Source of the DNA: Pseudomonas wuhanensis | GTDB lineage: Bacteria; Pseudomonadota; Gammaproteobacteria; Pseudomonadales; Pseudomonadaceae | Assembly (NCBI RefSeq): GCF_030687395.1 | Contig: NZ_CP117430.1 | Coordinates: 1,116,001-1,180,000, forward strand | Length of the DNA stretch: 64,000 nt | Direction: 5' to 3' | Shown here: positions 43,606 to 62,032 of the stretch, one piece after another | Layout of the letters: each line of letters starts with the position of its first letter | Numbering within the stretch: the first letter of the stretch is position 1 | Notes under the pieces: model-generated | Seen by the model: only the letters and a program-made list of their open reading frames with translations | What the model was told of the DNA's origin: nothing | Database searches by the model: none | Made by a program: the position numbers and the translations under genes

Positions 43606-44700
43606 ATGACGCCCCTAGAACGATATCAAGCTGATCTGAAACGCCCGGAATTCTTCCACGATGCTGCCCAGGAAACGGCGGTGCGTCATTTGCAGCGCCT
43701 GTACGACGATCTGGTCGCGGCCTCGCAGAACAAACCGAGCCTGCTCGGCAAACTGTTTGGCAAGAAAGACCAGGTGCCGGTCAAGGGCCTGTACTTCTGG
43801 GGCGGCGTGGGTCGCGGCAAGACTTATCTGGTCGACACCTTCTTCGAAGCGCTGCCGTTCAAGGAAAAGACTCGCACTCACTTCCACCGCTTCATGAAGC
43901 GCGTGCATGAAGAGATGAAGACCCTGGGTGGCGAGAAAAACCCGCTGACCACCATCGCCAAGCGCTTCTCCGATGAGTCGCGAGTAATTTGTTTCGATGA
44001 GTTTTTCGTCTCCGACATCACCGACGCGATGATCCTTGGCACGTTGATGGAAGAGTTGTTCAAGAACGGCGTGACCCTGGTCGCGACGTCGAACATCGTG
44101 CCGGATGGCCTGTACAAGGACGGTCTGCAGCGTGCGCGTTTCCTGCCGGCCATTGCGCTGATCAAGCAGAACACCGAGATCGTCAACGTCGATAGCGGCG
44201 TCGATTACCGTTTGCGTCACCTCGAGCAAGCGGAGCTGTTCCACTTTCCGCTGGATGACGCTGCCCAGGAAAGCCTGCGCAAGAGCTTCCGGGCCTTGAC
44301 GCCAGAATGCACGGCAGCCATCGAGAACGACGTACTGGTGATCGAGAACCGTGAAATCCGTGCCGTGCGCACTTGCGATGACGTGGCCTGGTTCGACTTC
44401 CGCGAACTCTGCGACGGCCCGCGCAGCCAGAATGATTACATCGAACTGGGCAAGATTTTCCACGCCGTGTTGCTCAGCGATGTCGAGCAGATGAGCGTCA
44501 CCACCGACGACATCGCCCGACGCTTTATCAACATGGTCGATGAGTTTTACGACCGCAACGTGAAGCTGATCATTTCTGCCGAAGTCGAGCTTAAAGACCT
44601 CTATACCGGTGGTCGCCTGAACTTCGAGTTCCAGCGCACGCTTAGCCGTTTGCTGGAGATGCAATCCCACGAGTTCCTGTCCCGGGCGCATAAGCCATAA
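43606..44700 (+). CDS. zapE: Cell division protein ZapE (AFG1-family ATPase)
   Basis: 364-aa AAA-like ATPase that affects Z-ring constriction. The Walker A is GGVGRGKTYLVD (about residues 65-76) and the Walker B is VICFDEFFVSD. The fold also includes the sensor region LVATSNIVPDGLY. In E. coli it binds FtsZ, while mitochondrial Afg1/LACE1 is the related quality-control factor. The accessory island begins only 32 bp after its stop, so its coding sequence is intact. Confidence 0.94.
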   Translation: MTPLERYQADLKRPEFFHDAAQETAVRHLQRLYDDLVAASQNKPSLLGKLFGKKDQVPVKGLYFWGGVGRGKTYLVDTFFEALPFKEKTRTHFHRFMKRVHEEMKTLGGEKNPLTTIAKRFSDESRVICFDEFFVSDITDAMILGTLMEELFKNGVTLVATSNIVPDGLYKDGLQRARFLPAIALIKQNTEIVNVDSGVDYRLRHLEQAELFHFPLDDAAQESLRKSFRALTPECTAAIENDVLVIENREIRAVRTCDDVAWFDFRELCDGPRSQNDYIELGKIFHAVLLSDVEQMSVTTDDIARRFINMVDEFYDRNVKLIISAEVELKDLYTGGRLNFEFQRTLSRLLEMQSHEFLSRAHKP

Positions 44701-44732
44701 GCGTCTCAAAACAGTAGAATGGTTCGGAAACT

Positions 44733-44750
44733 AAAAAGGCCTGCAATGCC
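44733..44750 (+). repeat. Left terminal inverted repeat of the island
   Basis: AAAAAGGCCTGCAATGC, 32 bp after the zapE stop. It matches the reverse complement of 56407-56424 with one mismatch. Confidence 0.6.
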
Positions 44751-44837
44751 ACTTATACCCTAAACATACATATCTCTTGTTTAGAGTAGGGAGAAGTGGC
44801 CAACAGACCTTAGTAACCGGGGCTTCAGTCCGCCAAA

Positions 44838-44867
44838 GCATTACGATGTATGAATACATCGTAATGC
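44838..44867. repeat. Perfect 30-bp palindrome downstream of gmtX
   Basis: GCATTACGATGTAT and ATACATCGTAATGC are perfect 14-bp inverse arms around GA. It lies between the island left end and the gmtX stop codon. With no T run it is a poor terminator; it may be a recombination or regulatory site of the trio. Confidence 0.7.
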
Positions 44868-44890
44868 ATCGAAACATGAATCCGTCGACT

Positions 44891-45553
44891 TCAGACACCA
44901 AGAACTTTTCGGATTGCTCGGGCAAAACCCACCTCGAACATTGTTCGGCCGCGCTCATTGACGATTTCCCCGTGACTACCCTCTTGAAAACCTCGCTCCT
45001 CAAGGTAGTTAGGTGATACCGCCTTTTCTAAGGCTTCGCGCTCCGTCGGAGTCAGTTGAGCCGATGGGGCGAGTACAGCCAGTGGGTGTTCGCCAGGCGC
45101 CGCCACGATAGTTGCGCCCAGCGGGCGCCGGTCCACTGTTACCTGCGTGCTGGACTTCAAGACGTTGAGTTGCGCCTTGAGCTTATCCCGCTCAGAGATG
45201 ATGGCCTGCATGATGGAGCGGATGGCTGGTTCTTCGATACGCATCAGGTACTCATGGCTCGCTAGCAACTTTTGCGGCTTGGGCATGGGAGGCCCAGCGT
45301 ATGCAGCCCATGCTTCAATGAGCGCCTTGTAATCTGCCGATTGCGCGTTGTAGAGCGCGCGGCCCTTCAAGATGCCCTCGGCTTCGGCCAAACGACCGAT
45401 GACCGGCAATGAGAAGTCGCGGGAGCCAACTTCATGCTGCTTGCGACAAAGCTCGTGCATTTTCGCCAAGTTAGACCGCCGGTTTGAGCGCCCGCCTTTG
45501 GCGAGCAGAGACTCAAGGACTGCGTCTGGGTGGATGTCCATCTTTCGATTCAT
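44891..45553 (-). CDS. gmtX: GmtX-like protein (third gene of the mobile trio)
   Basis: 220-aa protein with an N-terminal segment AVLESLLAKGGRSNRRSNL followed by a region with DFSLPVIGRLAEAEGILKG that looks like a helix-turn-helix. Next come ADYKALIEAWAAYAGPP and a coiled-coil stretch near SIMQAIISERDKLKAQLNVL. These features and the position after two tyrosine-recombinase-like genes fit GmtX. The start overlaps the preceding gene's stop (ATGA), so translation is coupled. Molecular role unknown; a DNA-binding accessory factor is my inference. Confidence 0.7.
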   Translation of the reverse strand: MNRKMDIHPDAVLESLLAKGGRSNRRSNLAKMHELCRKQHEVGSRDFSLPVIGRLAEAEGILKGRALYNAQSADYKALIEAWAAYAGPPMPKPQKLLASHEYLMRIEEPAIRSIMQAIISERDKLKAQLNVLKSSTQVTVDRRPLGATIVAAPGEHPLAVLAPSAQLTPTEREALEKAVSPNYLEERGFQEGSHGEIVNERGRTMFEVGFARAIRKVLGV

Positions 45554-48150
45554 GCGTCATTTACCATGAGGATATCGTGCTCAGCAGGGAACGCCTGGCC
45601 CCTATTTTTTGTGGGCAACAGCATGGCAAGATCCATGTCGAATTGCTGGCTGAGGCTCTCGCCTGCATCTATCAATCGAATTACTTCCCGCTGACCAAGA
45701 ACGGGGTTCGCTGGATTCATCTGCTGCCCAAGGCGGAGCAGGAAGGCGTTGCCGGCAATTAGTTGCTCCTGTTCGTTCAACAGCATGAACATGGGCGGTA
45801 GGTCTTGTCGGTAGAGAACTGAATCCAGCAACTGGCTACGGCGAAACACTGCCTTGCCGGATTCAAGGTCGGGGTAGAGTGCGATGTTTTCACAGACGCC
45901 AGCGAGCTGGAGCAATTCCGACTCAGTCTCCTGAAAGGCAATGTGCAAGTCCCCAATTCCACCAGCGGCCACCAATTGGTTGCCGTGACCCTGCGGGGCT
46001 TCAAGCGCCATCTTGCAGCGTTCAATAAGACGCCAGCAGGCTACAAGATCCTCTGCTAGGTCACTAAAACGCTTCATTGTGCTCTCCCAGACACGCTCTG
46101 CTTGCCGGTGGGCACCCATATACGCAAACGGCTGACCAGCGTCTTCCGCTTCAGCTTTCTGCTTCTTCAAGCCTTGGAGTTCATTCTCACGAGTGAGGCA
46201 AAGGTTGCGCGCCTCATCAAAGTGATAAGCGAGTGTATTGAAGTGGGCAACAAGCGCTGGCATGTAATGCGGTTCGGTCACAAACCAGCGACAGCGCACA
46301 CAGTTACGGCTGCCACCCGGAACGGGCCCGTGCTTCGGATTTGAAGCTGAGCCGAAATTAGGGCCACCGTTGTAGCAACCGCCAACTACGCCGTTATCCT
46401 CGATTTCGCTGGTGTTGCCACCAGCCAGGCACAGGCCGTGATGCATCGGCATCCAGCCCACTAAATTGCGCGCAGCTGGATGCTGCGGGATGGCGGCAGC
46501 GAGACTAGGAACATTGTTGCAGATGGCCTTTTGAAGGAGTTCGTCGTACTCGGTGTCGAGCAAGAAGTTCTGGATACTCGCCTCTTTATTCGCATTCAGC
46601 CGCTCTGCCGCATCGAGCAGCATGTCGTGGATGCGGGTTGCGCCTGGCTTTGTGTAATACAAAGTCATTATCAGGCGGCTGTGGCCGACGAGCTTTTGCA
46701 GTACCGCGAACGGAACCTGACCTTCGAGTGCCAGCGCGGTGATGAGAGAGACGCGGAGGCTGTGTAATGGAAAGAGGGTTGTCAATCCGTTGTTCTGTTC
46801 TTCCTGCGGTGGTAGGAATCGAATCGGCGTACCGTTGCTATGGGTTTCTTCCCGGTCGGCAAGCCGCTGTTCGAGTGCTTCGAGTAGGCGGAACCAGGCT
46901 GGGGACAACGTAGTTTCCTTTAACGGAAGTTGACGCTCGTAAATACCAGACTCAGGCAGACGAAAGAGAAAGCAGGAGTCGGGGTAGGCCGCCAGTTGCA
47001 CACGGCTCTTCGCACTGATGTGGCGGCCGTCTAACTCCGTCCATGCCGTGCGTCGAGGGATGGGGTTGTAATGCTCCTGCCAGTTGCGCAGCTTTTCCAG
47101 CCAGTAGAAGACGTCCTGATGCTCTAGCCCGCCGAAGAACCATGGCAACACGTAACCCTTCTCCGGGCCGGACTTGGCGATGTCGGCGGTCTTATTGGTA
47201 TTGATGTAGAGCATGGCCGAGACCGCTTCGCCATCGGCCAAAGGTTGACTGCGGCGGAATACGCCCTGTTGCAGTGGCCGGCGTTCGTTGCCCTGCGCAA
47301 GCCGGCTATGATTTAACGTCCAGTTTCCTGCCGCGTAGCGCCAGGTGTCTGCTTCGCCCGAGTCGAGCATCCGGACTTGAAATGTGCGCAACGGCACGAT
47401 GAGCTTCGCGATCAATGCCACCCAGCGGACTGGGCTCCACATTTCTAGACGAGTGCCGTTCTTCATCGGGATCTCGCGCCACACGCAGTCCGGATCGTTC
47501 CGGTCAATCTGCTCTTCGGTCACCTCAAACCAGTCGGGACCAGAACGCACGCGTTGACCAGTTTCAACACCGAGTGCACTTTGCGCCCAATGCCAGTCAC
47601 GGAAATGCGGTCCTGCGGCGAGCATCTGCCGCAGTTCGTCGATGTAGCCATAGGGCAGAGGCGAATGAACGCTCTCATCCCGCCTCATCCGCACCTCGGA
47701 GTCAGAAAGACGTGGCACCGGGTTGTGAAAAGCAGGAGACACAACTGGTTCGCCATAGTCGTTGGCTTCGCTGAGTTCATGCAGTAGCACAAAGTGCAGG
47801 AAGGCGTGGATGACATTATTGTACTGGATGCCTTCTTCTGAATTCGGACAGGCCGTACGGTAGAAATCGGGCAGGAGGGTGGTGCGCGCTAGGAGCACCG
47901 CGGGATCAAGCGGCAGCCTCTGCTGGACAAGGTAGCGCTCAAAGAAGGACACAAAGGCTCTCAGCCTTTTGGCGATGCCAGTTGTTTCACCTTCTAACCA
48001 CAGCACCGCCAAGTCACGCCAGGTGGCGAGTTGAGGGTAATCCCGCCCGACCCAGCTGAGGGTTATATCCGTATTACGCTTAACCCCTTTTACCTTGGAG
48101 GTCGGTTGGGCGGATGCTCCCTGATCTGTCACATTTTCGTTCTCATCCAT
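45550..48150 (-). CDS. gmtZ: GmtZ-like tyrosine-recombinase-type protein
   Basis: 866-aa protein. A catalytic-like tyrosine-recombinase domain spans about residues 240-510: Arg in VPLRTFQVR (R255), H463-S-L-R466, then GH490 and Tyr498/499 in MTLYYTK. The N-terminal 130 residues resemble a core-binding domain. The C-terminal third contains Cys pairs (C-V-R-C near residue 627) and a coiled coil, perhaps a zinc-binding DNA-contact module. It starts 8 bp after gmtY. The large size and partner genes fit GmtZ of gamma-mobile-trio elements. Confidence 0.75.
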   Translation of the reverse strand: MDENENVTDQGASAQPTSKVKGVKRNTDITLSWVGRDYPQLATWRDLAVLWLEGETTGIAKRLRAFVSFFERYLVQQRLPLDPAVLLARTTLLPDFYRTACPNSEEGIQYNNVIHAFLHFVLLHELSEANDYGEPVVSPAFHNPVPRLSDSEVRMRRDESVHSPLPYGYIDELRQMLAAGPHFRDWHWAQSALGVETGQRVRSGPDWFEVTEEQIDRNDPDCVWREIPMKNGTRLEMWSPVRWVALIAKLIVPLRTFQVRMLDSGEADTWRYAAGNWTLNHSRLAQGNERRPLQQGVFRRSQPLADGEAVSAMLYINTNKTADIAKSGPEKGYVLPWFFGGLEHQDVFYWLEKLRNWQEHYNPIPRRTAWTELDGRHISAKSRVQLAAYPDSCFLFRLPESGIYERQLPLKETTLSPAWFRLLEALEQRLADREETHSNGTPIRFLPPQEEQNNGLTTLFPLHSLRVSLITALALEGQVPFAVLQKLVGHSRLIMTLYYTKPGATRIHDMLLDAAERLNANKEASIQNFLLDTEYDELLQKAICNNVPSLAAAIPQHPAARNLVGWMPMHHGLCLAGGNTSEIEDNGVVGGCYNGGPNFGSASNPKHGPVPGGSRNCVRCRWFVTEPHYMPALVAHFNTLAYHFDEARNLCLTRENELQGLKKQKAEAEDAGQPFAYMGAHRQAERVWESTMKRFSDLAEDLVACWRLIERCKMALEAPQGHGNQLVAAGGIGDLHIAFQETESELLQLAGVCENIALYPDLESGKAVFRRSQLLDSVLYRQDLPPMFMLLNEQEQLIAGNAFLLRLGQQMNPANPVLGQREVIRLIDAGESLSQQFDMDLAMLLPTKNRGQAFPAEHDILMVNDA

Positions 48151-48158
48151 GAAGGTTC

Positions 48159-49556
48159 TCAGTTGTTCAGTTCGATATCAGCCAGCAATAGGTCGGACTT
48201 GGAGAGTGGCCCGGGATACTTGTCCCGCAATCGCTGCGCGGCCGACTCTAGTGCCGCGAAGGCTTCGCGGGTGTTCGCCCGCGTATACACTTCCTGGCTT
48301 TCCAGCGAGGCATGATGCATGAAGCGGCGGATGAGCGCCTTGTCGACGTCGGCGTTGCGCAGGCGGCGACCGTAAGCATGACGGTGGCCGTGTGGTGTCG
48401 TGCCCAGAGCCTTGCTAACTGTGAGTCCAATGCGCTTGCAGGCGGCGGCATGAGCCTTATTGTATTGAGCCAGCGTGTACATGGCTCCAACAGGCTCTCG
48501 GTTCAGGTTGACAAAGGCAAATGGGTGGTCGCGCTCAATACATGCGATCTGTTCGAGGTAGCGTTGCCAAAGCTGCTGGAACCATTCCCCATACTCGGGC
48601 AGGAACCAGTACGCCTGTTTGTAATAAGGCCCATCGTGCGTACCACCCTTCCAGCCGGCGTGGCGGCGATCAAGCACGTCAGTGCGTGGCACGAGACCAT
48701 ACTGATGGGCAAGGTATTCTGCTCGTGTACCTTTACGCGGTTTTCCTCTTTCATCGCGCCATTCAGCAGGCCCAGCCCCATAACTCGGGTGGTGAACTAG
48801 AACGTTAGCCTGGTCAGGGTTCGAGGGGGTCGGGAAAACGTCCTGAATGTAGAGGTGAAATGGCTCAGATTCCCGAAAGCCTGCGCCGTGTAGCAGCAAT
48901 GTAATCAGCATGCCGCGATAATCGCGGCGCCCGCCTGCGTTAAAACCGTTTAACAGTAGTTCCTCGAAGCACTCTTCAGGGAAAGCCGGCGGCTCGCCCT
49001 TTTCCACATTGGGCAAGCGTCGACTACGCATCCGATGTCCGGTCTCGGGGGGCGCATTCTGCGCCCAGGTATGACCAAGGAATGCCTTGTTACGCCGGTA
49101 TTGGTAGGCAGCCGCATCGATCTGACGGTCAAAGGCGCCGCCCTCATAGCGGGGATTCACCTTTGTGGCTTCAGGGAGCATGTTGCCCAGCCAATCGAAG
49201 AAGTCGGTGAGGTGGGTGATGATTTGCGCGACATCTTTCGGCGATCGTGGAGCCCAACACAATCCGCTACTGTCAAGACCCGTGCTGCGGTCAAATGTCC
49301 CTGTGTATAGGCGTTGAGCGAAGTTCTGGAACAGTTGATAGGTGTCGCGCTCCGCTGTATTAACTTGCAGATATTCGAGGAACATCCGCAATGAGCGAGT
49401 TACCTTGATCATCCACATGAGGCTGCGGTCGTGGCTGCGATGGAGAAAGTAATCAAGCAACGGTTCGAGCACGCCAGCAGGCGTCATTAACGCTGGAAGC
49501 TCCGTATAAACGCCAGTCGCGTCGGTGTAAACACGAGCCTTGACTGTCACAAACAC
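48159..49556 (-). CDS. gmtY: GmtY-like site-specific tyrosine recombinase
   Basis: 465-aa integrase. The catalytic set can be read: R228 in GAGFRESE, H389-G-H-R392 in TPHGHRHAYG, His414/415 and nucleophile Tyr424 in HHASLESQEVYTR. The first 200 residues hold the core-binding region. It starts with GTG at 49556, with a GGGAAGG-like site upstream. It lies 30 bp after a 65-aa gene and 8 bp before gmtZ, so four genes form one operon reading toward the island's left end. Confidence 0.78.
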   Translation of the reverse strand: MFVTVKARVYTDATGVYTELPALMTPAGVLEPLLDYFLHRSHDRSLMWMIKVTRSLRMFLEYLQVNTAERDTYQLFQNFAQRLYTGTFDRSTGLDSSGLCWAPRSPKDVAQIITHLTDFFDWLGNMLPEATKVNPRYEGGAFDRQIDAAAYQYRRNKAFLGHTWAQNAPPETGHRMRSRRLPNVEKGEPPAFPEECFEELLLNGFNAGGRRDYRGMLITLLLHGAGFRESEPFHLYIQDVFPTPSNPDQANVLVHHPSYGAGPAEWRDERGKPRKGTRAEYLAHQYGLVPRTDVLDRRHAGWKGGTHDGPYYKQAYWFLPEYGEWFQQLWQRYLEQIACIERDHPFAFVNLNREPVGAMYTLAQYNKAHAAACKRIGLTVSKALGTTPHGHRHAYGRRLRNADVDKALIRRFMHHASLESQEVYTRANTREAFAALESAAQRLRDKYPGPLSKSDLLLADIELNN

Positions 49557-49586
49557 TAGGCCTTCCCTATCTACGCGATGTGCAGG

Positions 49587-49784
49587 TCAAATCGCCCATT
49601 CGTGACCTTCTTCAACAACCTGATGCGTCTCGCTGACCACGATGAGCGCCTTACCCCTATGCACCAAGCAGAAACTAGATACGAGGTCAGCGTCGACACC
49701 TGCTGCGGACGTTGTGTCGCCAAGCGTGCCAATCCAGACATAACGGTGGGTTTCGAGGCACGCCAGGTAGTAGCTGGTAGGCAT
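49587..49784 (-). CDS. Small hypothetical protein leading the recombinase operon
   Basis: 65-aa protein starting MPTSYYLACLETHRYVWIGTLGD and ending in EEGHEWAI. GGAG lies 6 bases ahead of the ATG at 49784, which supports this start over upstream ones. It is in line with gmtY, 30 bp upstream. The sequence predicts a small mixed alpha/beta fold; no family is recognised with confidence. Because of its position it may be a regulator or accessory protein of the trio, or a cargo gene. Confidence 0.6.
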   Translation of the reverse strand: MPTSYYLACLETHRYVWIGTLGDTTSAAGVDADLVSSFCLVHRGKALIVVSETHQVVEEGHEWAI

Positions 49785-49978
49785 TGCGTTGCTCCAATCG
49801 ATGACGTTGCGAGGCGCCAAGCTGGCTAACGTTACAAGACGCACGAAGGCGAAGCAATGAAGTGAAACGTCGAGAGCTCTCTCGCCGACACAGCTCAGGA
49901 AGATGAAGGGAGTAGTGGAAGGCAATCAGGTATTGAGCCAAATGATGGTGATGAGAGTAGCCGGGCTCGCATTAGCTG

Positions 49979-50070
49979 TGCGTAATTGCATCGCACATGA
50001 CCACCAGGTTGCATTTCCACTGACCAGGAATTTGCATTGGTGCTGACCATTGTTTGCATCCGGCTGACCA
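49979..50070 (-). repeat. Left end of an IS21-like multi-repeat terminus
   Basis: Begins TGCGTAATTGCATCG and holds four copies of TGACCA alternating with four of TTGCAT (spacing about 22-24 bp). Read inward it aligns base by base with the reverse complement of 56042-56134 (TGCATAATTGCACGG...). Terminal 5'-TG...CA-3' and several internal repeats per end are typical of IS21-family elements. No istA/istB is present between the ends. Confidence 0.65.
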
Positions 50071-50278
50071 ATGCACGCAAAAGAGACGACAGGAAGAGAA
50101 CGGCGGCCAATAAAGCTGCTGGCATGCTGGCATGCTGGCTGCGTTGTTTGATTTGCCGCCTATACTGATCTACCCGCGTGGCTTGTCATTCGTGTCGTTT
50201 TTCTCTTCAAATAGCGTCGCGTTCGCCGTGGCCACCCTTAGGAAAACAAGGGCTTACAGGGTGTCAAGGAACTCTATA

Positions 50279-50316
50279 CGACATTATTGTCGCGTTTAAA
50301 TGCGACAGTAATGTCG
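50279..50316. repeat. 38-bp inverted repeat before the integron cassette
   Basis: CGACATTATTGTCGC and GCGACAGTAATGTCG (one mismatch) flank GTTTAAAT. It ends 10 bp before the GTTGGGC cassette boundary. It could be a resolution or recombinase-binding site left by a transposon. Not identified further. Confidence 0.55.
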
Positions 50317-50326
50317 CCTAATAGTA

Positions 50327-51013
50327 GTTGGGCGTCACAAGGAAGTACTCATGGACATCGCACCACTTCTTGAGCGCCTGCGGATGGTGTCGAATGACCA
50401 TCTACGCGCTAGCCTTCTCACACAGAATCTGAGCATTGATAACGCAAAGTTCCAAACAGCGTTCCAATGCGTAGCTGCAAGTCATGATCTGAGCAACCCA
50501 GATATTGATTTCCGAGGGCCTCCGGATATTCCTGCCCAAGTGATTCGAGGTGGTCGCCTCAGAGCATCGGCAGTCTTTATGGTCTTTTCTACCCTCTGTT
50601 ACATGAGGAACGAGCATCTTGAACGGGGCTTGGACGATGTTCCAGAAAGCTCCCCACTTCGGGCGTTCCGAGATATCTATCGCGCCGGTAGCATTAAACG
50701 TGGCGAGGATACCTTGGTCCAACACGTCCGCAACTCGCTTACCCATGGCTCATTTCAATTAGGGAAATCCCCAGTGATAACTTTTATCGACAGGGAGTGG
50801 CAAGAAACGCTGGCCCTTGATCAAATCTTGGAGCTCTGCGAACACGTCCACCGCCTATACCATGAGGCATTCTCGGGCGGTGTTCCACGACCATCCCATT
50901 GGTCCAGGTACGGGCAGGAGAAGTCGTGAAGGTGACGCCCAACAAGGCGCTTAAATCGCTCACTTCGTTCGCTGGGACGGGCTAAAGCCCGCCCCCTTAG
51001 CTTAATCGTTAGG
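50327..51013 (+). mobile_element. Integron-type gene cassette carrying the HEPN-like gene
   Basis: The left boundary is GTTGGGC at 50327-50333 (consensus GTTRRRY). The gene follows 24 bases later, and the attC recombination site begins 8 bases after its stop. The cassette's own R'' box GCCCAAC (50937-50943) is the exact reverse complement of the left-boundary GTTGGGC, as expected of a cassette that once closed into a circle. No integron integrase is in the window, so it may have been captured at a secondary site or brought in with a transposon. Confidence 0.65.
50351..50929 (+). CDS. HEPN-like protein (RX4H motif), cassette-borne
   Basis: 192-aa helical protein. The motif R127-N-S-L-T-H132-G matches the HEPN RX4-6H ribonuclease motif, with the polar Asn after Arg that the family prefers. 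The protein has no signal peptide or membrane helix. HEPN proteins of this size often act as RNases in toxin-antitoxin or abortive-infection systems; no obvious antitoxin partner is adjacent. It is the only gene of an integron cassette. The specific function is inference. Confidence 0.65.
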   Translation: MDIAPLLERLRMVSNDHLRASLLTQNLSIDNAKFQTAFQCVAASHDLSNPDIDFRGPPDIPAQVIRGGRLRASAVFMVFSTLCYMRNEHLERGLDDVPESSPLRAFRDIYRAGSIKRGEDTLVQHVRNSLTHGSFQLGKSPVITFIDREWQETLALDQILELCEHVHRLYHEAFSGGVPRPSHWSRYGQEKS

Positions 51014-51014
51014 T
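50937..51014 (+). other. attC recombination site (59-base element)
   Basis: R'' is GCCCAAC (50937-50943) and R' is GTTAGGT (51008-51014). Inside them GCTTAA pairs with TTAGC with one extra base, as in attC L boxes with an extrahelical base. The centre holds the GACGGGC-TAAA-GCCCGCC hairpin. Length 78 bp. It starts 8 bases after the stop codon of the cassette gene. Confidence 0.7.
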
Positions 51015-51065
51015 GGTCGCAGTTCACCGCTGCTTAATCCGCATCCTCACAACGGAAAAATCGCA

Positions 51066-51593
51066 ATGGCTTTGGCTTCCGTAGCACCTTACGCTTTCAG
51101 TCCAAACGAATTATGGACCCTTGGAATTGCTGCCTATGCAGCCGTGGTTTCTACTTTCGTTCTAGGATGGGACGCATACAAGTGGCTAGCTTCTGGAGCA
51201 AAGATCGATTTATCCGCATCAACTGGGATGAAGGTCTTGGGTGGTCCAATTCAAGATCCGAAAACATACATATCCATAACAGCATGGAATGTCGGTGACC
51301 AACCCACCACCATCACAAACTTGGGAGGTATGTACTTTGATTCGTGGTGGCGCGCATACGTCACCCGACGGAAACCCTCCGAGGCTTTCATCATCACTGA
51401 ACCATCGCAAGCCCAACGCATTCCATATCGTTTTGAAATCGGAGATCAATGGGTCGGCTTAGTTGATCAGGCTGATGACATCGTGCAGAAGGCAAAGAAT
51501 GGGTATTTGTTTCTCATCCTCTACACGGCCAGAGGTGGGCGTGGTCATAGAATTCGCGTGAAAATTCGAGAGAAGGAGTCCGCTGAACCATGA
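51066..51593 (+). CDS. Hypothetical protein with one N-terminal membrane helix
   Basis: 175-aa protein. A hydrophobic helix (about 14-36, LWTLGIAAYAAVVSTFVLG) is followed by a beta-rich C-terminal region (ISITAWNVGDQPTTITNLGG), reminiscent of an immunoglobulin-like or stress-sensor domain. It starts 52 bp after the attC R' box, so it could be the gene of a second cassette, although no complete attC follows. Function unknown; similar small membrane proteins often occur as defence-island cargo. Confidence 0.65.
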   Translation: MALASVAPYAFSPNELWTLGIAAYAAVVSTFVLGWDAYKWLASGAKIDLSASTGMKVLGGPIQDPKTYISITAWNVGDQPTTITNLGGMYFDSWWRAYVTRRKPSEAFIITEPSQAQRIPYRFEIGDQWVGLVDQADDIVQKAKNGYLFLILYTARGGRGHRIRVKIREKESAEP

Positions 51594-51694
51594 TATTTGT
51601 CGGTTGGCTGGGGGCATGCCTTATCCCGGCATGACCTTATTTATACGTCGGACAAAGTAAGCTTTCTATGAAACCGACCTCAGGAAGAAGATGT

Positions 51695-52417
51695 ATGGAT
51701 CCGACCGAACAGCATGTTAATGAATACCTAAGGGCGATCGGCTATACCAGCGTCGTGTTTGAGCCTGACGGAAATAATCCACCCGACTTTAGCGTGAACG
51801 GGGTGATTGGTGTTGAAGTGCGTCGCCTCAATCAAGAAAACAACTTCGGAAATGCCCCCCCAGAGGGGTTAGAGGACAAGGAATACTCGCTATATGACGG
51901 AATGCTGAATCTCGCTGGCAGCTTTGGCCCTCCGACAAACGGAAAGAGCTGGTTCCTGAGATATATGTTCTCTCGTCCAATTGGGCGATGGAAGCAGTTG
52001 CAGCCGAAAGTCAAAGATGCGTTGGATAATTTTCTGCTAGCACCGACCAATGAAAGGACTATGCTTCTCAGTTTGCCTAATTTTAGAGTTTACATCTCCC
52101 CAGCGAGTGCGGTCGGCAACTCTAAACTCGTTGTTGGTGGGTACGTCGACCTTCAAGCGGGAGGTTTCGTTATTTCGGAGATGGAACGTAACATCCGAAA
52201 ATTCATCATCGAGAAATCCTGCAAGGTCGATCCTGTGCGCCATACACATAATGAATGGTGGTTGGTTCTAGTCAATCATATCGCTCATGCAGTCGATAGC
52301 TCTGAGCAGTCTGCTATCAGGGAGTTGCTGAGAATTGAGAAACTTAAGGCCGAGTATTTTTGGGACCGAATTTTCGTCATTGACAATGTCGACTTCAATC
52401 AATGGTTTGAGCTCTAG
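51695..52417 (+). CDS. Hypothetical protein, PD-(D/E)XK nuclease-like
   Basis: 240-aa protein. P30-D31-F...G39-V-E41-V-R43-R resembles the PD-(D/E)XK nuclease core with Arg in place of Lys; an upstream helix (HVNEYLRAIGY) would supply the conserved Glu. The rest is not recognised. I chose the ATG at 51695 because AGGAAG lies 7 bases upstream; one at 51668 would add nine residues. The sequence GCCCAAC occurs 16 bases after the stop and may be a decayed attC start. The nuclease assignment is inference. Confidence 0.6.
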   Translation: MDPTEQHVNEYLRAIGYTSVVFEPDGNNPPDFSVNGVIGVEVRRLNQENNFGNAPPEGLEDKEYSLYDGMLNLAGSFGPPTNGKSWFLRYMFSRPIGRWKQLQPKVKDALDNFLLAPTNERTMLLSLPNFRVYISPASAVGNSKLVVGGYVDLQAGGFVISEMERNIRKFIIEKSCKVDPVRHTHNEWWLVLVNHIAHAVDSSEQSAIRELLRIEKLKAEYFWDRIFVIDNVDFNQWFEL

Positions 52418-52519
52418 CGGACATCTGAAGAAGCCCAACCTCTACGAAGTCGCAGGTCTGGAAACCATTCGACCTTAGCGCAGGACTCGCTTTACCCCAA
52501 GAATGGGATATGCCATTGG

Positions 52520-53167
52520 CTAACTCCTAACTTCACGCGCTACCGACGGCCGTCGTATGGAAGGTAGTGTCAGGGCGCACTTTGCGAACTCCTCTACCCG
52601 TTTTGCCAAATGGTAGAGAAGCTGAACAATACCGAGCTTGCGCTGCTGCGCTTCAAAGAGTCTTGCTAGCTCTTCCAGTTGATTATCTGAGTATGTGCCC
52701 GCTGACTCGAGCCTGCGAAGCTCGGCAGCACTAACGTTCACTGTAATGAAACTTCGGTAAACCGCTGGCTCTCCCGCCAGTGCTACGACTGTGTGCCCCT
52801 CATCAAGCTGGCTTGATGCAATGTGAACCTGATAGTTGCGCAGCAGCTTGACGACGTGAAGAGATGGATCTCTACTCGTTTTGAATGACAACTGTTGGCC
52901 AAGCAACTTAGTGACATCTTCAACTCGGCAAAGCTCGGTTAGTGATGCGCGAAAGTAAGCCCCTCTGACTTGGTCTGGGCGGAACGAAGTTGGGGAATCG
53001 TCGATTAGCTCAATCTGGCTCGCCATGTGTATCGCCGACTCGATGCAATGCTTTACCGAGTGAAATTGTCGAGGCCAACCCTTTGGTTTGGGTGGCAGCA
53101 CGAAACCATGCGACACATCGACAAACCGATTTGCCTCAAAATTCGGAACCTTCGTCTTATGCGCCAT
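52520..53167 (-). CDS. Hypothetical cytoplasmic protein
   Basis: 215-aa basic, mostly helical protein starting MAHKTKVPNFEANRFVDVSH. AAGGA sits 6 bases ahead of the ATG at 53167. Contains HVVKLLRNYQVHIASSQLDE and a C-terminal helix pair (QLLYHLAKRVEEFAKC). No family recognised; the pattern RNYQVH is R-x4-H spaced but lies in a different context from the two HEPN candidates, so I do not call it HEPN. It is the only cargo gene here on this strand besides that at 55431. Confidence 0.6.
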   Translation of the reverse strand: MAHKTKVPNFEANRFVDVSHGFVLPPKPKGWPRQFHSVKHCIESAIHMASQIELIDDSPTSFRPDQVRGAYFRASLTELCRVEDVTKLLGQQLSFKTSRDPSLHVVKLLRNYQVHIASSQLDEGHTVVALAGEPAVYRSFITVNVSAAELRRLESAGTYSDNQLEELARLFEAQQRKLGIVQLLYHLAKRVEEFAKCALTLPSIRRPSVAREVRS

Positions 53168-53640
53168 GAGCGTCCTTACATTAAGCAAACGACAAAAGTG
53201 GCGTAAGGCTTTTCGCCATTTGTATCTGATCATGCCCCATGCTCACCCGCAACTCTATGGTTTGGGTGTCGAATCGGAAATACGAAAGAGGGGCTGCGAG
53301 AAGAGCGACATGATTTGCACGCACGTTACTGCTCGCTGCGAAGCATCTCCATGGTTCGCTTTTGGCCGAACTGGACCGTGCATGCCGGTATCTCACGACG
53401 TCTGCTTACAAGGCATAAGAGGTCACTCCCAGCCGAGCACTCAAGGCACAGTCAGTATTGGGGAGCCTACAGAATTCGGAAATAATCGTACGCTAAGGTT
53501 TCAGACTCTAGCGGCGGGCCAGATCCAGAGTTCACCCACCTCCATCCGCCTGGCTCCCGAAGGCCCACGGGCTGTGGCCTATACTGAATCGGTCAATGTG
53601 TTCGCAACCAACGTGTAGTACTGAAAGGAATCCCCACGAC
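53168..53640. other. Gene-free stretch holding a Tn3-type inverted repeat
   Basis: 470 bp with no plausible gene. It holds the promoter of the minus-strand gene ending at 52520, a small inverted repeat near 53195-53222 (AAGTGGCG / CGCCATTT), and the 38-bp Tn3-like terminal repeat at 53460-53497. Confidence 0.5.
53460..53497 (+). repeat. Left 38-bp Tn3-type inverted repeat
   Basis: Outer end GGGG at 53460, inner end CGCTAAG at 53497; inverse partner at 56152-56189 with one mismatch. Confidence 0.8.
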
Positions 53641-53883
53641 ATGGCCGATATCGAGAACCCCTCCGAACAGCTAGAAGCGCGTTTTACCGAGTTGAAAGCG
53701 CAGTATCAGCGGTTGCAGGACGATTACGACGATGAAGTTCTTTTGTGCACGGGTCTGCTACGCGCCCTGGCCAATGCAGACTATGGCTTTTGTGAGACGC
53801 TGGTGAAGCACGCCGACTGCTCGGCTGAGCGCAAGGCCGACGCACTTCAATACATCGCCGATGCGCGTGCTGGGTATGATTGA
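53641..53883 (+). CDS. Small coiled-coil hypothetical protein
   Basis: 80-aa acidic protein starting MADIENPSEQLEARFTELKA, with a predicted coiled coil over residues 8-35 and a helical tail with DALQYIADARAGYD. GGA lies upstream of the ATG. No family recognised. It sits just inside the left Tn3-type repeat. A resemblance to small proteins carried near Tn3 or phage-type genes is possible but cannot be shown. Confidence 0.55.
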   Translation: MADIENPSEQLEARFTELKAQYQRLQDDYDDEVLLCTGLLRALANADYGFCETLVKHADCSAERKADALQYIADARAGYD

Positions 53884-53893
53884 GCGGACTAGC

Positions 53894-54329
53894 GGTTATG
53901 CCGAGATAAAGGAAATTTAGGACATTGGCGCTGTATGTAATTGTTTTAGAGTCGTTTTCTTCGTGTCATCCGCTACGATCCTCACGTGTGTGCCACAGGC
54001 GCAGCAGGTAGATATTTGAGCAGCAGCGCTACCGGGCCAGCGGCCTCAACCTGGTAACAGCTGCTATCGTACTGTGGGGCACGGTCTACCTGGAACGGGC
54101 CACCCAGGGGCTGGCTGACACCGGAAAGCCGGTGAATACCGACCTGTATCAGTACCTGTCGCCGCTGGGCTGGGAGCACATCAATCTGACTGGCGATTAC
54201 GTCTGGCGGCAGAGTCGCCGGCTGGAAGACGGGAAATACCGACCACTGCGAAAGCTATAAGTAATAACTACGCTAAAAACAGCTAGTTACGAACCAAATG
54301 AGTGAATTTTTCCTTTATCTCGGCATGGC
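53894..54329. mobile_element. Deleted Tn3-family transposon remnant (Tn4651/Tn5041-like ends)
   Basis: GGTTATGCCGAGATAAAGG at 53894-53912 faces an inverse copy at 54309-54329 (18 identical bases, ATGCCGAGATAAAGGAAA). The motif looks like the terminal repeats of the Tn4651/Tn5041 branch. Between them is only the 3' end of a Tn3-type tnpA. The remnant is about 435 bp and differs in end sequence from the 38-bp repeats around it, so two different Tn3-type elements are nested. Confidence 0.65.
54012..54260 (+). pseudogene. tnpA 3' fragment, Tn3-family transposase
   Basis: The last 82 codons of a Tn3-type transposase: [20 protein letters not shown], then [18 protein letters not shown] and a final PLRKL stop. 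This matches the conserved C-terminal block of DDE Tn3 transposases. An in-frame stop lies just upstream (54009-54011), and the catalytic region is gone. It ends about 50 bp from the right remnant repeat, the normal distance for tnpA. Confidence 0.85.
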
Positions 54330-54360
54330 TTCGTCATAGATCAACAGCAGGGGTGTCAAA

Positions 54361-55317
54361 ATGTCGAAAGGAGATCGCCTTTTCCGAGGGCCGGAAAGTC
54401 ACGCGGCGGAAAAGTTATCCAGAGATGCACTCGCACCATTCCTGAACGATCGAGGCTACGTTGTCATTGACGACGAGCGAAAACGAACGGGCGTGGCCAT
54501 TCAGCAGTTCATCAGTCTCCGCACTCCCGATGGCCAGGTACTGAGCATGCGCGTCCGACTGTGCTGGCGGCGCGATGGACGAAATCCCAACGAGAAGAAA
54601 TACGCAGCGGCTCAGTTGGCGGCGCATCTGCGGAAAGGTGGATGGGATGCGACGCTGGAGCACATCACAACGAGAGATACGAAGCGCGGGCTCACTCACA
54701 ATTTGCTCGTGCAGCGTGACGAAGGCGCCATTATCTTTGCCGCGCTCATTCCTATCGAAAGCCTCCATGCCATCTGGAGCCGCCAGCGCGAAGTCAGCGA
54801 TGACCTGCAACGCCGTGAGTTGAAGGGACGAGCCAAGAAGAATCATGCTCAGAACGGCACCAGCCCGACTCTGTGGTTACAGGATGACCGGACACCTGAC
54901 GGACACGAGGTGGCCGACGCACTGTGGCAGTGGCCGGGTGTGATCGATTTAGCCAAGCTCACTCCCCATGTAGTGGTCGACGATACCTACGACGACTGCC
55001 CGGCGCCGTACTATTCGTCTTTGGGTCGAGATGAAGGCGAGCGCGTGCCCGTGCTTCGCTCGGAGGTTCGTCGCGATCCGCATGTACGTCGAGCTGTACT
55101 CGAAAGGGCTGGGTTTGCGTGCGAGCGTGAGGATTGTGGCAAGCGCCGGGAATTCCCTGGCTTCCTGGATGTTCATCACATCTTAGGGGCCGAGAAATCA
55201 GACCGTGTATACAACTGCGTGGCCCTGTGCCCGTGCTGTCACCGCGAAGCGCACTATGCGCCAGATGCGGATGAACTCAACAAGCAGCTACTTACATATG
55301 CCAAGAGGTTCGGCTGA
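54361..55317 (+). CDS. HNH endonuclease domain protein (possible restriction/defence nuclease)
   Basis: 318-aa protein. The C-terminal HNH domain (about 240-300) has Cys254/Cys259, H272-H273-I, Asn285 and C290-P-C-C-H294-REAH298, so both the metal-binding Cys set and the His-Asn-His set are intact. The first 200 residues form a separate domain of unknown type (RDALAPFLNDRGYVVIDDER..., GVIDLAKLTPHVVVDDTYDD), possibly a DNA- or modification-recognition module. AGGGG precedes the ATG. It is inside the Tn3-type unit, next to a HEPN-like gene. A defence role is inference. Confidence 0.75.
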   Translation: MSKGDRLFRGPESHAAEKLSRDALAPFLNDRGYVVIDDERKRTGVAIQQFISLRTPDGQVLSMRVRLCWRRDGRNPNEKKYAAAQLAAHLRKGGWDATLEHITTRDTKRGLTHNLLVQRDEGAIIFAALIPIESLHAIWSRQREVSDDLQRRELKGRAKKNHAQNGTSPTLWLQDDRTPDGHEVADALWQWPGVIDLAKLTPHVVVDDTYDDCPAPYYSSLGRDEGERVPVLRSEVRRDPHVRRAVLERAGFACEREDCGKRREFPGFLDVHHILGAEKSDRVYNCVALCPCCHREAHYAPDADELNKQLLTYAKRFG

Positions 55318-55430
55318 ACCACTTTGCAGTGGGAGGCCCCTATCGTGCTCGGCGATTACGTCTCGTGGCAGGGCCGCTGCGTAATTGCACAGACTTGACC
55401 ACCCATTTCCGCCTCTTTCAGGTGAGCCAC

Positions 55431-55943
55431 CTAGAGGGGCCAGTGTGTTCGTAGCCTGGCTAGCTCTCGCTCTAATGCACACAACTCTTTGTTGAACACG
55501 GCCAATTCCTCAAGGCTGTATTCAATGCATTGCTGCGCACCGGAGGGAAGTCCAATGACATTGACGATCTTGTGACGGTGCGCCTCGACGCCCCATCGAC
55601 CGTGGGCCATCTGATTGCGCCGCACCCGAGCGGCATGCATATGCTCAATCCATCGTTCATAGGCCGCACGGCGTTTGGAGCCGGCGGGTAACCTCTCTGC
55701 AACTTGGGTCGAAAGCGTTTCGAGCTTCGTATGGATGTTCTGCCCTTCGATCGATTTCGATAAAGTTTCCAACTTTGTGCCGTTGTCCAACCACGCCAAG
55801 CAGAGCCCTAAATTCACATCGATGTATGAGAACGCGAAGAGCATCTGTCCGAGTAACAATGCAGCCTCAGCTTGCATCGCCTCTTGACGTGCCATCAGTT
55901 GTCCAGCTGTTTCGATCGGGTCAGGCGTTGAATTAGGTTCCAA
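55431..55943 (-). CDS. HEPN-like protein (RX4H motif)
   Basis: 170-aa helical protein. R109-N-Q-M-A-H114-G matches the HEPN RX4-6H motif with Asn after Arg, followed by RW. The protein includes LLGQMLFAFSYIDVNLGLCL (helical, hydrophobic but amphipathic) and a long C-terminal helix (SLEELAVFNKELCALERELA). It is convergent with the HNH gene (113 bp apart) and 98 bp from the right IS21-like end. RNase or toxin activity is inferred from the motif only. Confidence 0.62.
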   Translation of the reverse strand: MEPNSTPDPIETAGQLMARQEAMQAEAALLLGQMLFAFSYIDVNLGLCLAWLDNGTKLETLSKSIEGQNIHTKLETLSTQVAERLPAGSKRRAAYERWIEHMHAARVRRNQMAHGRWGVEAHRHKIVNVIGLPSGAQQCIEYSLEELAVFNKELCALERELARLRTHWPL

Positions 55944-56041
55944 GGCTTTCTCGCATTCGTAGTCTGGGTGATGCAGAGTTCAGCACATTATTCCGTAGGT
56001 CTGCTCCTGGCCGTTCTCTGCCGGTCGTCACTACCACATGC

Positions 56042-56134
56042 TGGTCAAGTCGAATGCAAACGGTTGGTCAGCGCGAATGCAATTGACTGGTCAACGGCAA
56101 TGCAAATGGGTGGTCAAGTCCGTGCAATTATGCA
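56042..56134 (+). repeat. Right end of the IS21-like multi-repeat terminus
   Basis: Four copies of TGGTCA alternate with four TGCAA boxes at about 23-bp spacing, and the end reads GTGCAATTATGCA. The reverse complement aligns over its full length with 49979-50070. It lies 17 bp inside the right Tn3-type repeat. The 6.16-kb interval between the two ends carries cargo instead of istA/istB. Confidence 0.65.
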
Positions 56135-56151
56135 GCCGCTGCCTGAAAAAC

Positions 56152-56189
56152 CTTAGCGTACGATTTTTTCCGAATTCTGTAGGCTCCCC
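56152..56189 (-). repeat. Right 38-bp Tn3-type inverted repeat
   Basis: Inverse copy of 53460-53497 with one mismatch; outer end CCCC at 56186-56189, followed by TATTG. Confidence 0.8.
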
Positions 56190-56322
56190 TATTGATTCGT
56201 ACATACGGATAACTGCGCCGGAACCTGCAGACTTTGCTGTGGAGCACAACGTGACCATGCATAGGACTAAATCTCGCCTACATACCATGCCGAATCATGG
56301 TATAGCTTTCACATTTGCGGAT

Positions 56323-56350
56323 AAAAAAATACCCCTCAAAGAGGGGTACT
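56323..56350 (-). terminator. Strong hairpin terminator near the island right end
   Basis: On the minus strand TACCCCTC-TTT-GAGGGGTA is followed by TTTTTTT. It would stop transcripts running leftward from the asparaginase operon into the island. Confidence 0.8.
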
Positions 56351-56406
56351 GATGCAGTAACTGCCTGAAAAAGCCCTAACTATGTATTCCCCGGTGGGGG
56401 GAATAA

Positions 56407-56424
56407 GCAATGCAGGCCTTTTTT
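56407..56424 (-). repeat. Right terminal inverted repeat of the island
   Basis: GCAATGCAGGCCTTTTTT, the near-inverse of 44733-44749. It begins 8 bp beyond the asparaginase stop codon, next to an inverted TATTCCCC/GGGGAATA element at about 56385-56405. Confidence 0.6.
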
Positions 56425-56431
56425 GTGTACG

Positions 56432-57427
56432 TCAATTTTGAAATCGAATGTCCTCTTTGAGGTAGCGCGCCAGCTCAGCTTGTCGCTGGCAGCCCATGAG
56501 CAGCCAAAGCAGAATCCTGGCTTTGCGCGGGCAGAGAAAGCCAGCCATCGATGCACCTTTACGGATCAGATCCATTTCGCTACCCATAAAACCGTATGAA
56601 GATTGTGCGGTGGAGCCAGAACCGGTCCGGGTCGCGATGATGACGGGGATTCTTTCTGCGATTTTTTCCACGATGTCAGCCCAACTCTTTGAGAGGTGTC
56701 CTGCGCCGAAAGCGGAGATCACCAGCCCGTCGTAGCCCAGCTCAAGGATGTTTTCCAATAACAGGGTGTCAGCAGAAAGCGTCGCTTGCAGCAGAGCAAT
56801 TTTCTGAGTGGTTTTTTTTGGCAAGGGTAAGACCCTCCGTTGGGCCGGTTGGCGTAGATAACGGACGGTTTCTTCTACCAGCATGCCTGCCGGACCAAAG
56901 ATGGGAGAGGAAAACGCCTGCAGCGCCAAAGAATCGGTTTTGCGGACGACGCTCGCTTGGTGAATTTGTCCGTTCATGACCACTTGGACGCCTCGCCGAC
57001 GGCTGTTTTCAGCCAATGCGACTCGGCAAGCATCCAACAGATTCGCCGGGCCCTCGGCTCCCGTCTGGGCAGCCGAACGCATGGCACCAGTCAGCACCAG
57101 CGGTTCGTCGTGGTCCCACAAGTGGTCGAAAAATGTTGCTGTTTCTTCAAGGGTGTCAGTTCCCTGAGTGATGACAACACCCACTGCGCCTTGCTTGATT
57201 TGGAAATTTGCCCAGGAAAGGACGCTCAGCAAGAATTCGAAATCCAGTGAAGCACTTGGCAGCAGCCCGAGAGTCTCAACGGTGACCCGTGCCAATGTCA
57301 TTATTTGCGGTGCGGAGGTCAGCAGGGTTTCGCCGCTGATGGTCGGGAAAACACCTTCTTCGGCGTTCCTGGCTTGCATGCTCACTGTACCGCCGAGCGC
57401 CGCGATGGCCAGTTTGGGCTGGTCCAT
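56432..57427 (-). CDS. L-asparaginase (type I/II family)
   Basis: 331-aa amidohydrolase producing aspartate and ammonia from asparagine. The first catalytic Thr lies in ALGGTVSM, an unusual spelling of the TGGTI motif, and the second Thr-Asp pair in VVITQGTDTLEETA. The later Lys region is LTGAMRSAAQTGAEGPAN, where Arg replaces the more usual Lys or Met-Arg-Pro block. No signal peptide, so cytoplasmic. The ATG at 57427 has GAGG 6 bases upstream. It is last in a minus-strand set with a transporter-like protein and a nitrilase, so its true amide substrate may be other than asparagine. Confidence 0.85.
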   Translation of the reverse strand: MDQPKLAIAALGGTVSMQARNAEEGVFPTISGETLLTSAPQIMTLARVTVETLGLLPSASLDFEFLLSVLSWANFQIKQGAVGVVITQGTDTLEETATFFDHLWDHDEPLVLTGAMRSAAQTGAEGPANLLDACRVALAENSRRRGVQVVMNGQIHQASVVRKTDSLALQAFSSPIFGPAGMLVEETVRYLRQPAQRRVLPLPKKTTQKIALLQATLSADTLLLENILELGYDGLVISAFGAGHLSKSWADIVEKIAERIPVIIATRTGSGSTAQSSYGFMGSEMDLIRKGASMAGFLCPRKARILLWLLMGCQRQAELARYLKEDIRFQN

Positions 57428-57506
57428 GTGATACCTCACTTGCTTGTGATGAGAAGTCGGCTGTATCCGGAGCTGAGTCCGTGATACAGCCCGATGGCGG
57501 CATTTG

Positions 57507-58715: not shown

Positions 58716-58731
58716 CAGTCATGCCCCCTGA

Positions 58732-59619: not shown

Positions 59620-59819
59620 TCCCGAAAACCTCTTTTTATTGTTATTCACGCGGTTAAATTGCGTGTTCATAAGAGGTGAAACAGGGGCAGGAGGTAAGTC
59701 AGCCACTTCCGTTTAGGTTGTAGTCCATATCCCAAGATGAATGGGCGAGGCGCTTGGTGGGCGGGGACGCAGGTAGAGCCAGTGCATGTCGCACATGGCT
59801 CTTGGGCAGGGGATGGTGA

Positions 59820-61766: not shown

Positions 61767-61918
61767 TGTTGATCTTCCCTGATGTTGTTTTTCAGGGAAC
61801 GATGTTGAAGCTTTTAAGGGGCGGAGTATGTGAGCAGAATCGAGTGCTCCGGCGCTCTGTATTCCGCTTTTTGCGTAGGAAAAATGCATTGCGAAAAACC
61901 TGCGCGCGCAAAACTTAG

Positions 61919-62010
61919 TGTGGGGGCGGGCTTGCTCGCGAAAGCGGTGTGTCAGTCGTCATCAAGTTTGAATGTCAGACCGCTTTCGCGAGCAAGCCCG
62001 CTCCCACAGT
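61919..62010. repeat. REP-type inverted repeat pair
   Basis: GGGGCGGGCTTGCTCGCGAAAG and its inverse flank about 45 bp, downstream of the AraC-type gene. Confidence 0.85.
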
Positions 62011-62032
62011 TGATTTGTGTTGTTCTCCAGAG

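Follow-up and report, generated by a model that had tools for sequence, protein, structure and literature searches.

Gamma-Mobile-Trio (GMT) islands, reportedly described by Mahata et al. in 2024, are islands in which the genes gmtY, gmtZ and gmtX stand in this order, while cargo and location vary. Here we describe an island of 11,657 bp in a stretch of 64,000 nucleotides of Pseudomonas wuhanensis (contig NZ_CP117430.1, positions 1,116,001 to 1,180,000), called the window below, which likewise has the three genes in the same order, variable cargo and a variable location, and which differs in that its clade reaches into the Betaproteobacteria. Three other systems are close enough to be compared. 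In strand-biased integrative elements (SEs), six bases of the target are kept at the integrase-side end and six bases of the donor are moved to the other end, a rule cited also for Tn554 in passages of PMC10214605. SE-6283 and SE-6945 are built on four core genes, intA, tfp, intB and srap (passages of PMC9345347 and PMC10214605), whereas the GMT trio comprises three, and since the four-gene core is thus incomplete in the window, we do not class the island as an SE. Tn554, with TnpA, TnpB and TnpC, resembles GMT in its two tyrosine recombinases and small third protein and leaves a 6-bp footprint, but unlike GMT its hosts are Staphylococcus and Enterococcus (passages of PMC10214605). GInts are tyrosine-recombinase genomic islands with a recombination-gene operon, also present in Pseudomonas; their genes are GinA-D and their sites lie at the ends of genes such as ssb (passages of PMC5385486).

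The portions of main text covered contain 0 occurrences of "terminator", "hairpin" and "palindrom" in PMC5385486, and lack the word "terminator" in PMC9345347 and PMC10214605. A T-rich centre is reported for SE attB in passages of the same sources, and according to a supplementary legend of PMC9345347, among the parts covered, attL sequences contain a marked "putative transcription termination motif"; SEs too may meet terminators, and the legend possibly records something related. GMT target sites are not described in the GMT passages of PMC12039261 and PMC12715929. Neither a terminator-loop rule nor a six-base GMT footprint was found in the literature searched, which did not reach the original GMT description, and publication elsewhere is possible. 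From the comparisons below, we consider it highly probable (roughly 0.85) that the window island lies in the loop of the zapE terminator, that its target is an inverted repeat with a 6-nucleotide (6-nt) centre, and that its integration resembles that of SEs and Tn554. We are inclined, with clearly more reserve, to extend this to GMT islands as a class, as integrators into terminator loops whose six-base footprint is copied from the previous host site.

The window island and the zapE terminator

An earlier note on this DNA had proposed an operon like that of GMT islands, with three adjacent minus-strand genes of 465, 866 and 220 aa, of which the first two bore signs of tyrosine recombinases. 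Searches with the GmtY, GmtZ and GmtX profiles agreed with this proposal, as all three proteins exceeded the cut-offs curated by NCBI for each GMT protein. On the minus strand, gmtY (48159 to 49556, 465 aa) scored 519.6 bits with NF040693 (cut-off 340) and matched Pfam Phage_integrase, gmtZ (45550 to 48150, 866 aa), which encodes a large tyrosine recombinase, scored 993.4 bits with NF047926 (cut-off 600) and matched Pfam Integrase_2 at 3.4e-120, and gmtX (44891 to 45553, 220 aa) scored 232.4 bits with NF040692 (cut-off 40). What we take to be the tyrosine-recombinase residues, at their presumed motif positions, can be read in the translations of GmtY (GFRESE ... HGHR ... MHHAS ... EVYTR) and GmtZ (HSLR ... 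GHS ... YYTK). According to the list of open reading frames (ORFs), the start codon of gmtX (45553) overlaps the stop codon of gmtZ, which ends at 45550, and this makes the coupled translation suggested for a GmtX-like third gene plausible. By the ORF coordinates the trio is tightly spaced in the order Y-Z-X, an order found also in annotated plasmid regions of other GMT islands, one of which displays Z and X only. The island is genuinely of the GMT type and belongs to an already known kind of island.

The element was placed at 44750 to 56406 by motifs common to other GMT elements. Its gmtX-side end, CACTTATACCCTAAACATACATATC (44750 to 44774, plus strand), has similar counterparts in other GMT elements, only 142 bp separating gmtX from the boundary of the element, and its gmtY-side end, read inward as TTATTCCCCCCACCGGGGAATACATAG (56380 to 56406, minus strand), was set by motif comparison. 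To the left stands an ORF at 43606 to 44700 (plus strand), whose 3′ end was matched in relatives and which, following the earlier note, we take to be zapE, encoding an AFG1-like ATPase. To the right stands an ORF at 56432 to 57439 (minus strand), presumably an asparaginase gene as in the earlier note. Between flanks and element, all on the plus strand, are the left arm of a terminator, ACTAAAAAGGCCTG (44730 to 44743), a 6-nt gmtX-side spacer CAATGC (44744 to 44749), a 6-nt gmtY-side spacer GCAATG (56407 to 56412), and the right arm, CAGGCCTTTTTTGT (56413 to 56426). We call the gmtX-side spacer the footprint by analogy with SEs, a role suggested by the five empty-site comparisons of other GMT elements given below, and by the same rule the gmtY-side spacer would be the target's own loop bases. 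The two arms are 11.7 kb apart in the window, and relatives L008, L010 and L012 have an intact hairpin in the same place; the island therefore appears to split the zapE terminator at its loop and is, judged from these alignments, inserted there.

The matching ends noted earlier do exist, since 44725-44749 and 56407-56431 form an 84% inverted repeat, but they consist mainly of the host terminator arms and the spacers, and the element itself spans 44750-56406. We thus rejected the 25-bp inverted repeat as a transposon terminal repeat, as it is mainly a split host terminator that is intact in relatives. No tRNA was found in the window.

The zapE flank or 3′ end had a match in 35 of the 38 searched genomes, among them G000. 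No GMT end was seen in the 200 bases after zapE in 24 other genomes of the same genus, and genome G002 (locus L012) shows zapE, terminator and asparaginase gene without an island, the same asparaginase C-terminus being read by eye beside the intact terminator. The GMT genes are accordingly not fixed core genes at this position, a condition under which the earlier note would have been refuted, and presence and absence of GMT at the zapE site is polymorphic. By eye, L008-L012 and L017 continue after zapE with an A-rich run, a first arm (GGCCTGC or GGGCCTGC) joined by a short loop to a second, and a T-tract, and the other 18 of the 24 loci have different sequence there, some with other hairpins. 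The intact hairpins, folded as 48-nt pieces, reached -26.3 (L012), -25.4 (L010) and -29.4 kcal/mol (L008), and 0 of 139 sampled segments per locus were as stable. Many of the 24 relatives show, by eye, zapE followed by the C-terminus of the regulator gene found at 62033 in the window, the asparaginase gene standing beside zapE in L012 only, and the stretch 56432-63028 as a whole looks like a variable spot.

Within the genus, 21 of 298 genomes, counting G000, have a GmtZ over the cut-off, and a class-wide GmtX search gave 4 of 369 genomes, again including G000; loci from the latter search were not used in the site counts. The same clade occurs in the Betaproteobacteria Cupriavidus, Delftia, Caballeronia, Burkholderia and Paraburkholderia, with 63-76% GmtZ identity, and in Vogesella, with 83% GmtX identity. 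In this clade the inward reading is ACTTATACCCTAANNNNACATA, with variants, for the end at gmtX and TTATTCCCCCC...ATACATAG for the one at gmtY. Pseudomonas G005, G102 and G289 have ends that match these, as do Vogesella, Acidovorax, Cupriavidus, Paraburkholderia, Caballeronia and Rhodocyclus loci and others. Plasmids of a Vibrio-enterobacterial clade (~36% GmtZ identity) have the ends TTATATATAG and GAGTATACAG or close variants, and the short inverted core motifs at the ends are TTATNCCC in the window clade and TTATATA/GAGTATA in the Vibrio-enterobacterial clade. Mismatches were tolerated in the motif scans, and scattered off-place matches were excluded by position and orientation. Window-clade ends were not found in the divergent Pseudomonas GMT-like loci G068, G095, G210 and G217, nor in G252 and G256, which were covered by the first motif search only; one end-motif match each in G068 and G252 was taken as chance, and the remaining divergent loci were examined as short loci only.

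Three further observations concern the elements themselves. A perfect inverted repeat of 14 bp, centred on 2 nt, lies directly after gmtX at 44838-44867 and may be a terminator belonging to the trio or a site for a regulator; G005 has a shorter such repeat after its gmtX. Members of the Vibrio-enterobacterial clade often have a VPA1267-family gene standing directly 3′ of gmtX (L126, L129, L130, L128, L137, L138), a possible fourth gene without counterpart in the window's clade. A 5,358-base contig of Paraburkholderia madseniana (L101) has limits that very nearly coincide with the GMT ends, which is what a circular or a collapsed multicopy element would give.

Target sites of related GMT islands

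Five GMT insertions in plasmids could be set against sequenced empty sites, in which the six central bases are given here in brackets. In IncHI2, the empty site GGCCAGC[AAGTAT]GCTGGC (L131) corresponds to the island-bearing L127, with flanks of 4,710 and 3,001 bp at 100% and 99.6%. The empty site of a Vibrio plasmid, AGAGCTTGC[AACTTT]GTAAGCTCT (L133), corresponds to L126. Two IncC sites, one downstream of traG, AAGGGGGC[CAGCAG]GCCCCCTT (L140), and one downstream of an annotated phosphoadenosine phosphosulfate reductase gene, AAAAAGCCCTC[CTTCGG]GAGGGCTTTTT (L141), are occupied in pKAZ2 and pKAZ1, respectively, and the IncHI1B site CAAGCCCTC[CATAAG]GCGGGATTTTTTT (L142) is occupied in L137. In all five pairs, both arms are intact, the target six stay at the gmtY-side junction and a foreign six stands at the gmtX-side junction (target/foreign: AAGTAT/CTTTGT, AACTTT/GGAGAT, CAGCAG/CTTTCG, CTTCGG/TGCCGG and CATAAG/CTTCGG). 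The feature that marks SEs and Tn554, the target six at the integrase-side end, was thus found in 5 of 5 GMT relatives, the window not being informative in this respect. An ordinary target-site duplication is disfavoured, as the six bases differ between the two ends in every pair. For four of the five empty sites the predicted fold is a hairpin with a loop of four bases (-14.4 to -22.1 kcal/mol), and segments as stable as these made up 4/307, 15/418, 1/175 and 5/167 of those sampled.

The origin of the foreign six is only suggested to be the donor site. UUCG loops are common in terminators, and it is hence weak evidence that the foreign six of L137, a K. pneumoniae IncHI1B plasmid, CTTCGG, is identical to the loop that the related island of pKAZ1 has as its target. 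Paraburkholderia caffeinitolerans (NZ_CADIKL010000005.1) carries two identical GMT elements of 5,403 bp on one contig (L108 and L109), whose outer flanks pair crosswise at 12/12 and 11/12 positions, as a result of either rearrangement by recombination between the copies or misassembly. If the flanks are cross-paired, the footprint of one copy, CTTTGG, equals the target loop of the other, and both coincidences fit the footprint as a record of the previous site.

The comparison was widened to 18 GMT insertions with both ends, taken from the window, from Pseudomonas and Betaproteobacteria genomes and from plasmids, and read in one register with a fixed 6-nt spacer. Loci with one usable end or none were excluded (G289/L105, L101, L102, L103, L110, L112, L114-L118, L120-L122, L124, L125, L128, L135 and L139), as were duplicates (L104=G102, L129=L126, L132=L127) and the divergent Pseudomonas loci. 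Arm identity was at least 9/12 in 12 of 18 sites as assembled, and in 14 of 18 when the flanks of both P. caffeinitolerans copies are paired crosswise, compared with 0.087% of 567,991 positions of the same loci and 0.18% (103/57,524) of ORF-free positions, meaning those outside any ORF of at least 100 codons. Summed over the sites, arm identity came to 157, whereas 200,000 re-pairings averaged 84.3 and never exceeded 139. An A- or T-tract was present in 12 of 18 sites versus 9.5% (7,672/81,149) of sampled positions, and arms of at least 9/12 together with a tract in 7 of 18 sites versus 0.05% of ORF-free positions. Among loci with one end, G289, L102, L114, L128 and the gmtX side of L138 resemble half-terminators by eye, and L110, L117 and L118 do not. 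Taken together, these alignments suggest that GMT islands usually target inverted repeats around a 6-nt centre, and often a rho-independent terminator hairpin whose four-base loop and closing pair would make up the six.

Several results weigh against this reading. In the sequence segments used, only the 7 of 18 sites mentioned have both good arms and a tract, and six sites miss the 9/12 level (L100 5/12, L108 8, L109 7, L123 4, L130 5, L137 7), the miss of L100 being a one-base register shift by eye and those of L108 and L109 coming from the swapped flanks. Two sites that pass at 9/12, L111 and L113, look coding by eye and have imperfect arms. A nineteenth site, L138, was left out for its doubtful gmtY-side end, and counted as found it would be a miss. 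The register offset on the gmtX side was chosen once the first sites had been inspected; all re-pairings of the permutation share this register. The IncHI1B empty site folds poorly (-7.6 kcal/mol, with 302 of 527 segments as stable), the Delftia and MAO6 plasmids yielded no empty site, and none from the same species was found for the window island. The spacers of the window, GCAATG and CAATGC, overlap and are nearly identical, so that the window itself does not show the foreign-six rule and allows no reading of origin. As a separate observation, L111 (Paraburkholderia mimosarum) and L113 (Caballeronia hypogeia) seemingly share the same coding target, by eye, with GMT elements in opposite orientations.

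Proposed integration and competing explanations

Since the six-base rule is published for SEs and Tn554 (passages of PMC10214605), we infer a similar mechanism for GMT. GmtY and GmtZ would act as tyrosine recombinases and GmtX likely as an accessory factor, on a core site composed of arm, 6 nt and arm. Strand exchange would take place at the 6-nt centre, where homology would not be needed, and the six foreign bases would be carried from the donor site on a circular intermediate. Movement may be of the copy-out type proposed for SEs and Tn554; this step is an analogy only and counts among the weaker points of the proposal. Terminators are natural inverted repeats outside genes, so the island could enter many genomes with little damage.

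We regard it as unlikely that GMT islands instead move as Tn916 does, by cut-and-paste of a circle of double-stranded DNA that carries a coupling sequence of 6 nt. Coupling sequences of Tn916 likewise leave six foreign bases at one end, but unbiased heteroduplex should give both arrangements, while the target six were always on the gmtY side and the foreign six on the gmtX side, in 5 of 5 cases, which are few. The observed order is, moreover, the order reported for SEs in passages of PMC10214605. It is very improbable that GMT islands merely prefer intergenic DNA downstream of genes, strike terminators because these are present there, and make an ordinary duplication of six bases, for although several sites are not terminators (L111, L113, L123, L130) and the window spacers nearly match, the arms match in a fixed register far above the 0.18% of ORF-free positions and the five empty-site pairs show no duplication, with different sixes at the two ends.

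Integration into inverted repeats with a 6-nt centre, as we prefer, would bear on how GMT islands are recognised. They spread defence and resistance cargo between plasmids and chromosomes, and as no single fixed gene serves as their target, their ends are difficult to place; Tn554 has one main target. A rule of arm, six, island, six, arm would give exact island ends, predict free sites and offer a test of the footprint as a trace of the donor, and it would tie GMT to the mechanism of Tn554 and SEs. If the footprint is indeed such a trace, sequence alone could reveal how defence islands have travelled between plasmids and chromosomes. It also raises the question whether the recombinase reads the palindrome as duplex DNA or as an extruded hairpin, as integron integrases do with attC.

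Cargo of the island

The cargo probably serves phage defence, to judge from sequence motifs that suggest a McrA-like HNH restriction enzyme, a PD-(D/E)xK-like protein and HEPN-like RNases; GMT islands are described as carrying antiphage systems in passages of PMC12039261. The nuclease-like features for which the earlier note singled out the cargo are clearest in a 318-aa HNH protein (54361 to 55317, plus strand), which matches PADLOC mREase_IV at 6.9e-12 and shares an HNH domain with EcoKMcrA (6ghc, E 3.2e-12) in residues 220-312 only. Its Pfam HNH match is below the gathering score, and no convincing PDB or Pfam match was found outside residues 220-312, including any for a modified-base reader domain in the N-terminal part. 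A 249-aa protein (51668 to 52417, plus strand; 217 homologues, 120 listed) has the PD-(D/E)xK-like pattern PPDF...E-x-R, with P39, D40, E50 and R52 invariant in 24 aligned sequences (window and 23 others), ExR being a variant of the (D/E)xK pair; its start possibly lies 9 codons downstream (P0001, 240 aa).

The HEPN motif is R-x4-6-H. It is present in a 192-aa protein with RNxxxH (50351 to 50929, plus strand; 91 homologues), whose R127, N128 and H132 are invariant in 22 aligned sequences (window and 21 of the 91) and whose predicted model (pLDDT 90) gave HEPN chains among weak fold matches, none significant by Foldseek. A 237-aa protein (52520 to 53233, minus strand; 14 homologues) has the HEPN-like motif LRNYQVH, with LRNxxxH in 13 of 14, and a PDB search gave nothing better than E 0.19. 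The weakest case is a 170-aa protein (55431 to 55943, minus strand), in which RRNQMAH is read from sequence only. Profiles of the 192-aa and 249-aa families gave no convincing solved structure in PDB. Pfam, NCBIfam and PADLOC scans gave no convincing family for the 170-aa protein and no family for a 175-aa protein (51066 to 51593, plus strand) whose N-terminus, by eye, includes a hydrophobic stretch.

We consider it possible, though not our favoured view, that this cargo is mainly passenger or selfish DNA, such as toxin-antitoxin-like genes and cassette debris. Among the island proteins, PADLOC matches the HNH protein only, the 192-aa protein has a weak fold match, and remnants of a transposase and of insertion sequence (IS) ends, together with a lone cassette, point to piecemeal gain. 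The McrA-like HNH match, the invariant nuclease-like residues, the RNxxxH motifs and the antiphage systems described for GMT islands (passages of PMC12039261) argue instead for defence.

The gene of the 192-aa protein lies within a probable lone captured integron cassette (50327 to 51014, plus strand), with the core GTTGGGC, the gene at 50351-50929 and an attC-like site at 50937-51014. Scanned with the attC box consensus, its R″/R′ boxes are complementary at 5 of 7 positions, with 0 matches in a 40 kb control. A second cassette was rejected, as the only other match lies inside gmtY, at 49252, and was taken as chance. By blastn, 50934-51015 matches four other plasmids, among Enterobacter, Vibrio and Pseudomonas plasmids. 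Speaking against a cassette, the top-strand DNA fold of 50925-51025 was no better than shuffles (z 0.11); the bottom-strand fold reached -31.7 kcal/mol, a value without shuffle control. No integrase intI was recognised among the island proteins scanned with Pfam and NCBIfam.

A transposase C-terminal remnant (53898 to 54326, plus strand), by eye the C-terminus of Tn3 TnpA, is flanked by an 18-bp perfect inverted repeat. Two IS-end-like repeats on the plus strand, at 49979 to 50104 (86% to G000:C1:4959406-4959531) and, partly inverted to it, at 56009 to 56135 (88% to G000:C1:5748564-5748691), resemble what we take to be IS21-family ends; istA and istB were not recognised by eye near such repeats in L001-L003. 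The cargo between 49979 and 56009 was rejected as one composite transposon, since similar repeats are single or irregularly spaced elsewhere in the genome and for this reason look like debris. The repeat, of ~126 bases, occurs at several places in the genome, including G000:C1 near 3855834, 4959406 and 5748564. A 45-base inverted repeat, 96% complementary, joins 53457-53501 and 56148-56192, 2.6 kb apart, and is also found near G000:C1:4227148.

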